64,000 nucleotides of DNA from Gemmatimonas groenlandica. Lineage in GTDB: Bacteria; Gemmatimonadota; Gemmatimonadetes; Gemmatimonadales; Gemmatimonadaceae. A program made the position numbers and the translations under genes. The notes under the pieces were generated by a model. It was not told where the DNA came from, searched no databases, and was given only the letters and a program-made list of their open reading frames with translations. This document shows positions 40,452 to 58,731 of the stretch, in pieces (position 1 is the stretch's first letter; each line of letters begins with the position of its first letter). The stretch is taken from the NCBI RefSeq assembly GCF_013004105.1, contig NZ_CP053085.1, positions 248,001 to 312,000 on the forward strand. Direction: 5' to 3'.

Positions 40452-40585
40452 CTGAAACTGCCAACTGCTTAGTGTGCAGGAAGGAGGGTGTCAGGGCGGA
40501 GAGGGCAGGGAGACCACGCGCGGTTTCTCTGCGTTCTCCTTCCTGAGACCCTCCCCCCTGCTTCCTAGGCAGTTGGCTTTTTGAG
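40452..40585. repeat. Family A palindromic element, bare copy
   Basis: The left arm reads CTGAAACTGCCAACTGCTTA and continues to about 40510. The right arm ends TAGGCAGTTGGCTTTTTGAG and is its imperfect reverse complement (about 80% over 56 bases). The tip is ACGCGCGG. It occupies the whole space between the convergent ppa and ketosynthase genes. The ketosynthase stop codon (40565-40567) and its last codons (Pro-Thr-Ala) are inside the right arm. Other copies: 54542-54670 and, with cargo, 58139-58731. Confidence 0.85.
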
Positions 40586-53162: not shown

Positions 53163-54545
53163 ATGACCTCACCATCGGTTTCCTCGACGAGCAGAAATTC
53201 CGGAACCAGCACGGAGCTGCCGCGCCGCTTAGGGCTGTGGAGCGCCATCGCCGTTCTGGTCGGTACCACCATCGGCTCGGGCATCTTTCGGTCCCCGGCC
53301 GGGATCGCCGATAAGCTCCCCGGACCGCTGCCCCTGATGGCGGTTTGGGTCACCGGCGGCATTTTCGCCCTCTGCGGTGCCCTCACCCTGGCCGAGTTGG
53401 CTGGAGCGATGCCGCGGACCGGTGGCTACTTCGTGTACATCCGCGAAGCGTGGGGTCGCTTGCCCGCCTTCTTGTACGGCTGGTCGGAGCTCACGCTCAT
53501 CCGGGCCGCAGCACTTGGCGGTATCTCGACCACCTTCGCCGAGTACCTGTTACGCGGGCTGGGCTATAATCCCGCCCTAGCGCCATACGATACCTACGCG
53601 CATTGGATCGCGGCGGCCACGGTCGCCCTCATGGCGGTGATCAACGTGGTGGGGCTCAAATGGGGGGCCCTCGTCCAGAACTTCACCACGGTCGCCAAGT
53701 ACGGCGGCCTCATGCTGATCATCCTGCTCGCCCTGATTCTTGGGCTCCCACAAACCGGCGGGCACTTTACCCCGGCCATGCCGCCGGGAAGCTTCTCGGT
53801 CTCCGCCTTCGGTTTGGCCCTGGTCTCGGTGCTCTGGGCGTTCGACGGCTGGGGCGACCTGTCCAAGGTGGCTGGCGAAGTGAAGGACCCCGAGAAGACG
53901 CTCCCCAAGGCGATCGTCCTCGGTACGCTCAGCATCATCTTCATCTACCTGCTGGCCAACATCGCCTACCTGTCGGTGCTCTCGGTCGACGAGATCCGCG
54001 GCGCCCGGCTGGTCGCGGCCGACGTGGCCGAGAAGCTGATCGGCCCGATCGGGGTCACGCTGGTCGCGATTACGGTGCTGCTGTCGACCTTCGGCTCGGT
54101 GAACGGCTCGCTCCTCACCGGCCCTCGCATCTTCTTCGCGATGGCCGACGACGGGCTGTTCTTCAAAAAAGTCGCGGCCGTGCATCCGACGTTCAAGACG
54201 CCCTACGTGGCGATTCTGCTCACCGCGACGATCGCGATCGCCTTCGTCTTGGTGCGCACCTTCGAGCAGCTGGCCGACATCTTCGTGACCGCCTCGCTGG
54301 TGTTCTACATCCTCAGCATCGGCGCCGTTTTCAAGCTGCGGCAGCGCCCTGACTGGAATCCACCGGTACGCACGCCGTGGTATCCGCTGGTCCCCGCACT
54401 GTTCTGTCTGGCAACGCTGTTCCTGTTGGTGAACGCGCTGATGGACGACGCACAACGGGTGCCCACGCTGGGCGTGTTTGGCGTGATTCTGCTGGGGGTG
54501 CCGGTGTACTACCTGACGGTTGGGAGAAGGGCCTCAAGGCCCTGA
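53163..54545 (+). CDS. APC-family amino acid permease
   Basis: The 460-residue protein has twelve hydrophobic helices. The helix 1 substrate motif LVGTTIGSGIFRSPAG, the GAMPRTGGYFVYIREAWG stretch, and the helix 6 stretch WAFDGWGDLSKVAGEVKDPEKTLPKAI are typical of the APC superfamily. It imports or exchanges amino acids; the substrate is unknown. Its stop codon at 54543-54545 lies in the terminal CTGA of a family A palindrome. Confidence 0.94.
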   Translation: MTSPSVSSTSRNSGTSTELPRRLGLWSAIAVLVGTTIGSGIFRSPAGIADKLPGPLPLMAVWVTGGIFALCGALTLAELAGAMPRTGGYFVYIREAWGRLPAFLYGWSELTLIRAAALGGISTTFAEYLLRGLGYNPALAPYDTYAHWIAAATVALMAVINVVGLKWGALVQNFTTVAKYGGLMLIILLALILGLPQTGGHFTPAMPPGSFSVSAFGLALVSVLWAFDGWGDLSKVAGEVKDPEKTLPKAIVLGTLSIIFIYLLANIAYLSVLSVDEIRGARLVAADVAEKLIGPIGVTLVAITVLLSTFGSVNGSLLTGPRIFFAMADDGLFFKKVAAVHPTFKTPYVAILLTATIAIAFVLVRTFEQLADIFVTASLVFYILSIGAVFKLRQRPDWNPPVRTPWYPLVPALFCLATLFLLVNALMDDAQRVPTLGVFGVILLGVPVYYLTVGRRASRP

Positions 54546-54670
54546 CTGCCAACAGCTTAGGAGGCCGGGAGGAGGGTGTCAGGGAGGAGGAGGCAGGGGC
54601 CATACGTGGTTCACCTGCCTCATCCTCCCTTTTCACCTCCTCCCTGCCTCCTCGGCAGTTGGCAGTTCAG
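54542..54670. repeat. Family A palindromic element, bare copy
   Basis: The left arm begins CTGACTGCCAACAGCTTAGG and the right arm ends CGGCAGTTGGCAGTTCAG. The arms are reverse complements over about 55 bases with a few mismatches. The tip (about 54600-54612) carries no gene. It sits between the APC permease stop and the TonB-dependent receptor start, and its first bases supply the permease stop codon. Confidence 0.85.
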
Positions 54671-58138: not shown

Positions 58139-58731
58139 CTGAAAACTGCCAACTGCTTAGGAGGCAGGGAGGAGGGTGTCAGGGAGGAGGGTGCAGGGGG
58201 CGTCGCGGCGAGAGCGGCGGCGTACTTCGGGTGACACCGATAGTGTGGACCGCCAGTATCCTCGGCGGCATGCAAGATCCTGCCAACATTCAGGCGTGGC
58301 ACCGCGCGATAGAGCTGGCGGTGCGCGTTCATCGGATCACGCGGAGCATCCGCCGCGCCGAAGCGCCTGGACTCGCGTCGCAGCTTCGACGGGCGGTGGG
58401 TTCAATTCCCACCAACATCGCCGAGGGTGTCGGCCAGCCGACAGCGGCCGACTGCGCGCGATTTCTCAGCTACGCGATCTCGTCCGCGTTCGAGGTGGAA
58501 AGCCACCTCGTCCTCGCCGAGAAGCTCGGCCTCCGACTTCCCGGCATCGGCGACGCCATAGACGAAACCCGCCAGGTCCGCCGAATGACCTACGGCCTCC
58601 GGCAACATTTCGTCCGCAAAGCAGCCGATGAAAAAGCAGCCGCCAAAGGAAAGGAGGCAAGCCGCCCAAGCGACCTGCCCCCTCCCCCCTGACACCCTCC
58701 CTCCTGCCTCCTAAGCAGTTGGCATTTTCAA
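58139..58731. mobile_element. Family A element carrying an S23-type gene between 38-bp perfect terminal inverted repeats
   Basis: TGCCAACTGCTTAGGAGGCA and its continuation (58147-58184) is matched perfectly by its reverse complement at 58687-58724. Imperfect pairing continues outwards (CTGAAAA / TTTTCA) and inwards for about 12 bases. The arms are the same as those of the bare elements at 40452-40585 and 54542-54670. The interior, in place of the bare tip, is about 500 bp with one gene (58270-58692) for a four-helix-bundle protein. Its stop codon lies inside the right arm. The element fills the gap between the receptor terminator and the mlaD-like gene. No target-site duplication is visible. 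Confidence 0.8.
58270..58692 (+). CDS. Four-helix-bundle protein, 23S rRNA intervening-sequence (S23) family
   Basis: The 140-residue protein (ATG 58270; an upstream ATG at 58231 adds 13 residues) has the family signature SIPTNIAEG (residues 45-53) flanked by AWHRAIELAVRVHRITRSI and FLSYAISSAFEVESHLVLAEKLG, giving four amphipathic helices. S23 proteins are encoded in 23S rRNA intervening sequences of Leptospira and Coxiella and are related to the Avd accessory protein of diversity-generating retroelements; their function is not established. Here no rRNA or reverse transcriptase is near. The gene lies within terminal inverted repeats, and its Pro-rich C-terminus and stop are encoded by the repeat. 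Confidence 0.88.
   Translation: MQDPANIQAWHRAIELAVRVHRITRSIRRAEAPGLASQLRRAVGSIPTNIAEGVGQPTAADCARFLSYAISSAFEVESHLVLAEKLGLRLPGIGDAIDETRQVRRMTYGLRQHFVRKAADEKAAAKGKEASRPSDLPPPP

Follow-up and report, generated by a model that had tools for sequence, protein, structure and literature searches.

What does an S23 gene do between inverted repeats that also occur elsewhere in the same genome with no gene between them? The question is raised by a window of 64 kb (the whole stretch of DNA analysed here, positions 248001-312000 of a single-contig genome of 5.18 Mb), in which an S23 element occupies positions 58143-58728 and consists of three parts:

58143-58197, + strand: left arm of the S23 element (inward strand G-rich; lag-7 autocorrelation z 4.9)
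58270-58692, + strand: S23 / 23S-rRNA-IVP four-helix-bundle gene (140 aa)
58674-58728, - strand: right arm of the S23 element, holding the gene's last codons and stop

The gene belongs to PF05635/TIGR02436 (E 7e-24 and 7e-26), its start codon (ATG, 58270) is kept across orthologues, and the protein begins MQDPANIQAWHRA. The arms are 55 nt long, inverted and 91% complementary. A preliminary description of this DNA had correctly placed an S23-type gene between inverted repeats, with its stop codon (TGA, 58690-58692) and Pro-rich tail (PPPP) inside the right-hand arm, although the 38-bp repeat that it called perfect (58147-58184 and 58687-58724) actually agrees at 36 of 38 positions. With a score of 44.5 the element is the sole position above 18.5 among 420 sliding positions of the window (99th percentile 14.3). 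It is flanked by protein genes, the locus has no rRNA match, and a search of Rfam returned zero family matches.

The same arms occur without cargo at two other places in the window, where they had been placed at 40452-40585 and 54542-54670; both hairpins are real, with slightly narrower bounds:

40456-40581, no strand assigned: bare hairpin of the window's S23 arm family, located between an inorganic-pyrophosphatase-like gene and a FabF-like gene whose ends converge
54544-54667, no strand assigned: bare hairpin of the same arm family, directly 3′ of the stop codon of a permease-like gene

As RNA these two fold at -92 to -94 kcal/mol, with z about -10 against shuffled sequences. The proposal of a dispersed element, which depended on the arms being found elsewhere in the genome, stood up to a tally of copies made with pattern searches and BLAST: the arm pattern has 42 occurrences (22 forward, 20 reverse) and the same pattern read backwards has 0. 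These 42 half-sites fall into 25 places, the S23 element being one, and there are at least 25 bare copies once diverged copies (including that at 40456) are added. An alignment of twenty bare hairpins (118-134 nt each) gives modest covariation, at 4 of 37 pairs. For 18 bare sites the gene neighbourhood was examined: each is no more than about 20 nt from the 3′ end (stop codon) of a gene, and divergent gene pairs never enclose one. Codon-position GC was the sole basis for calling ORFs here, and this crude caller over-extended the downstream frame at one site, which was consequently scored as 'inside' a gene. The 54544-54667 site is occupied in five relatives. At the 40456 site the relatives (L156-L163) carry palindromes that are full, shortened or replaced, differing in both sequence and length, which suggests symmetric deletion or conversion of hairpins; one relative (G025) retains a 24-nt perfect palindrome as a remnant.

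The S23 gene of the window is not the only one in its genome, which encodes four more, five in total. Three of the four further genes lie between inverted arms of their own and the remaining one (L001) lies beside a complete hairpin, such that four of the five S23 genes are inside inverted arms. The five arm families all differ from one another, and S23 genes of one genome lack common arms more generally (1% of pairs similar). The arms of the window's S23 element are therefore not shared by the other four genes, and every one of their arm families is likewise present as bare hairpins, at 12, 11, 8 and 5 places. Five S23 genes and five hairpin families thus amount to one gene per family. The L001 gene (G000:C1:1978063-1978377) has its hairpin alongside at 1977898-1977994 with no matching arms around it, and on its other side is a half-array of GTACTCC heptamers; elsewhere in the genome (G000:C1:2764176-2764539) five hairpins of the L001 family form an array with a spacing of about 75-80 nt. 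Another of the genes (L004, G000:C1:2497243-2497563) contains one in-frame TAG; at this locus several relatives have no stop, and in two others the S23 gene is internally deleted or absent.

Arms of this kind are a general feature of S23 loci and accompany most of the S23 genes analysed, which span four bacterial phyla. In a Gemmatimonadota set of 65 loci (the five above and 60 drawn from its genus, family and order), 58 have inverted arms at an inverted-repeat score above 14.5, so most S23 genes in relatives are flanked as the preliminary description would have them. The same is true of 64 of 73 loci outside Gemmatimonadota, mostly from Xanthomonadales, Cyanobacteria and Chloroflexota, whereas that score is exceeded by 6% of mismatched flanks and by 1.1% of random positions in X. 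arboricola. Within Gemmatimonadota the arm sequence varies from locus to locus, but a 7-nt period is common: mean autocorrelation z is 3.0 at lag 7, 2.2 at lag 14 and 1.1 at lag 21, with other lags near zero. Outside Gemmatimonadota lag 7 is the best lag for 55 of the 64 loci above that score (mean z 4.9); the five Chloroflexota arms prefer lag 8 over 7. The inward strand has more G than C in 112 of 122 arms. A G-quadruplex was considered as a common principle and rejected, as many arms (AACAGCG, GTCATTT, TCAGTTA, AAAAGTC) have no G-tracts. The arms in the window have diverged from exact heptamers and their 7-nt period is statistical only, while exact heptamers surround S23 genes in Xanthomonadales and Cyanobacteria.

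Intergenic repeats with such units, 7 nt long and often four per array, have been described before (PMC4692102, PMC4679880). Xanthomonas has GGGAATC, of which 70-75 pairs are inverted, and Nostoc has GGGGA(C/T)T (PMC4692102); TAACTGA occurs in Beggiatoaceae and Cyanobacteria, and a role in translation was proposed for it in Beggiatoa (PMC4679880). Neither of these two papers mentions S23, and we found no paper in the open-access literature that links S23 to dispersed or heptameric repeats. We predicted in advance that the S23 genes of heptamer-bearing organisms would lie between heptamer arrays, and found this in Xanthomonas with arrays of the GGGAATC type. The genomes used here were chosen by a heptamer-pattern scan of species genomes, which returned Xanthomonadales, Cyanobacteria and Chloroflexota among others; S23 is present in 21 of the 24 genomes chosen, and inverted heptamer arrays enclose most of the S23 genes in them, such as GGGAATC arrays in X. 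euroxanthea, GGGATTC arrays in Pseudoxanthomonas and Dokdonella, and GGGCATT arrays in Tychonema. Among solved structures the nearest to the window protein is 2gsc (E 1.9e-13), a five-chain entry for XCC0516 of X. campestris, the organism in which heptamers were described. In Xanthomonadales the S23 gene sits within operons, accB-S23-accC at 16 loci and carA-S23-carB at 9, with arrays that abut the S23 start region and, at several loci, also the accC start codon. At individual loci (L325, L329, L330 and others; L321, L368, L385) the S23 cassette interrupts accB-accC or carA-carB with different heptamers at each site.

The coupling is also specific. When eight genomes were searched with the arms of 14 S23 genes taken from six genomes, every match listed fell in the genome that had supplied the arm; the per-genome counts show a single departure from this, one weak match in G000, and none in G029. 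Across 149 genomes of the Xanthomonas family, where a match was defined as three consecutive GGGAWTS units, at least 30 matches occur in 38 of 64 genomes with S23 versus 3 of 85 without it (p 7e-15, a value that ignores phylogeny among related genomes), and matches total 7246 in the former and 318 in the latter. Thirteen of the 64 S23-bearing genomes have zero copies of the heptamer tested. Two (G063 and G220) carry only a carAB-type S23, with GGGACCC arms, yet contain 233 and 123 GGGAWTS arrays, and arrays are also carried by genomes without S23 (G185, 74; G194, 51; G195, 33).

Five relatives carry the window cassette at the corresponding locus, and in a sixth it is truncated; dN/dS for its S23 gene is 0.03-0.06 against same-type orthologues in G015 and G027 (0.03-0.07 within S23 types), which indicates strong purifying selection on the protein. 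Elsewhere, decaying S23 genes have suffered an internal deletion or acquired a stop codon. The window locus has two versions of the cassette, which differ in both arms and the ORF together: arms agree at 89-95% within an element and at about 60-75% between versions, and synonymous divergence of S23 from G000 is 0.43 to G015 and 1.26 to G025, even though the flanks are about equally similar. As arms and ORF change jointly and S23 divergence is unequal despite similar flanks, the cassette was presumably replaced at this site. Among S23 pairs with 50-60% identity, arms are common to 2%, and in Gemmatimonadota S23 phylogeny has no overall correlation with the arms except among very close proteins; arm turnover must therefore be fast. 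In Xanthomonas, arrays at matchable sites keep their position, with changes in unit number or locally rearranged neighbours. Clean pairs of an insertion and an empty site with target duplication were found neither at five S23 loci and three bare loci nor in 360-400 kb of two Xanthomonas species, and candidate empty sites under the criterion used for MITEs proved to be occupied, shortened or too diverged. Judging from these comparisons, the bare copies are old and mostly fixed in place.

Several known systems resemble this arrangement in part. As in REP/RAYT (REPIN) systems, each repeat family goes with one coding gene, which is single-copy, vertically inherited and enclosed by the repeat in inverted orientation, and extragenic palindromes of the family are dispersed in large numbers at the 3′ ends of genes; unlike in REP/RAYT, the protein is a PF05635 four-helix bundle rather than an HUH/Y1 transposase, and a 7-nt period runs through the arms. 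The S23 system works as REP/RAYT does, yet without a transposase, and so is no member of that class. Intervening sequences in 23S rRNA, which also exist in forms without an S23 ORF, offer a second likeness. In Leptospira and Coxiella a long inverted-repeat stem, 28 bp in Coxiella (PMC4990558), carries the S23 ORF in its loop; unlike these intervening sequences, the elements described here are intergenic or within protein operons rather than in a 23S rRNA helix, and the window element is a member of a dispersed family. Avd of diversity-generating retroelements belongs to a fold family related to S23, and the bAvd profile matches the first S23 member with a score under the curated cut-off, the best E across all members being 5e-7; unlike such retroelements, the present genome has no reverse transcriptase. 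The complete genome has no match to either the reverse transcriptase profile RVT_1 (PF00078) or the Y1/RAYT transposase profile PF01797, and RVT_1 is also without a match in 16 of 24 S23-bearing genomes tested. A diversity-generating retroelement or RAYT engine in this genome is thereby ruled out as far as these profiles detect them.

With neither engine available, we propose an oligomeric S23 that works through host enzymes. The evidence leans, if only slightly, towards a two-part element, in which an S23 master recognises the heptamers of its own family and maintains or spreads satellite hairpins in trans. The proposal builds on the physical coupling of S23 genes to arms, the generality of that coupling, the single arm family per S23 gene, the match of arms to dispersed copies within each genome, their co-occurrence and the selection on the protein. 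The master would be the single resident copy, an Avd-related four-helix-bundle gene between inverted arms, and the satellites would be the many non-coding hairpins of about 125 nt at gene 3′ ends, in which the arms fold directly together. The arms are inverted arrays of units of about 7 nt, degenerate in the window and near-perfect in Xanthomonas and Cyanobacteria. S23 would act as an oligomer (compare the five chains in the XCC0516 entry), binding its heptamers as RNA or single-stranded DNA, and this recognition would maintain or spread the satellites by way of host replication or repair enzymes. The preliminary description had suggested an element of the REP/RAYT kind with S23 as its mobilising protein: the logic of one gene with dispersed bare copies of the same arms is strongly supported and extends to other phyla, whereas S23 as the mobilising protein stays hypothetical, given a locus resident in five to six sister species, mostly fixed bare copies, no clean empty site and the lack of a known catalytic domain. 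A broader reading, to which we give even chances, is that S23/IVP proteins are the cognate factors of phylum-spanning satellites that need no transposase or reverse transcriptase, that the heptameric repeats of Xanthomonas, Cyanobacteria and others are these satellites, and that S23-carrying 23S rRNA intervening sequences would be members that landed in rRNA. This would join two loose ends, namely the common and structurally solved S23 proteins without known function and the intergenic heptameric repeats without a mechanism. Should the coupling prove functional, a protein gene would be paired with genome-wide repeats in a new way, the protein being neither a transposase nor a reverse transcriptase. 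The coupling also makes the function of S23 directly testable.

The main rival, which we regard as unlikely but serious, is that S23 is a host RNA-binding regulator in the manner of a TRAP-type ring, its subunits binding successive heptamers in hairpins at mRNA 3′ ends and so setting mRNA stability or processing; the repeats would then be a regulon rather than selfish satellites, and S23 would regulate itself via arrays that surround the start and stop codons of its own gene. Such a regulon would suit hairpins that lie within about 20 nt of a stop codon at 18 of 18 sites and never between divergent genes, array positions kept between species, the strong purifying selection on S23, the Xanthomonadales genes inside accB-accC and carA-carB with arrays abutting the S23 or accC start, and the translational role proposed for the TAACTGA heptamers of Beggiatoa (PMC4679880). 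It accommodates less readily arms that turn over far faster than the protein (common to 2% of pairs at 50-60% identity), which is odd for a conserved regulon, or several unrelated arm families per genome, each with its own S23, or copies that are decaying. The satellite and regulon readings both predict that S23 binds its cognate repeats, and differ in the effect that deleting S23 should have.

S23 might instead travel as a passenger: hairpin repeats would arise and spread on their own, through replication slippage and template switching for example, and S23, as a small mobile gene, would insert into them, the arms simply marking its favourite target. That arms follow the repeats of the genome rather than S23 phylogeny, and that cassette types are replaceable at one locus, is what such a passenger would produce, but independent repeats should not be nearly absent from relatives without S23, the cassettes sit at conserved loci, and each repeat family in this genome holds one S23 copy rather than several; we consider this improbable. 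Very improbable, in our view, is movement of the hairpins in trans by a RAYT/Y1 transposase or by a DGR-like reverse transcriptase partnered with an Avd-like S23: the architecture does resemble REP/RAYT and S23 is related to bAvd (best E 5e-7), yet the complete genome lacks PF00078 and PF01797 and 16 of 24 S23 genomes lack RVT_1. Finally, low-complexity, G-rich arms could match one another by chance or through base composition, an explanation that we can practically dismiss given null distributions built from these flanks, from this window and from a Xanthomonas genome, the 0 matches of the reversed pattern in the genome, and the out-of-sample heptamer result in Xanthomonas, which came true.

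Two minor observations concern the wider set of loci. A cyanobacterial S23 subfamily (L359, L363), in which KIAQG replaces NIAEG, is without flanking inverted repeats and may be a host-adapted branch. In draft genomes, many S23 genes are located no more than a few hundred bases from the end of a contig, as would result from assemblies breaking at flanking repeats.
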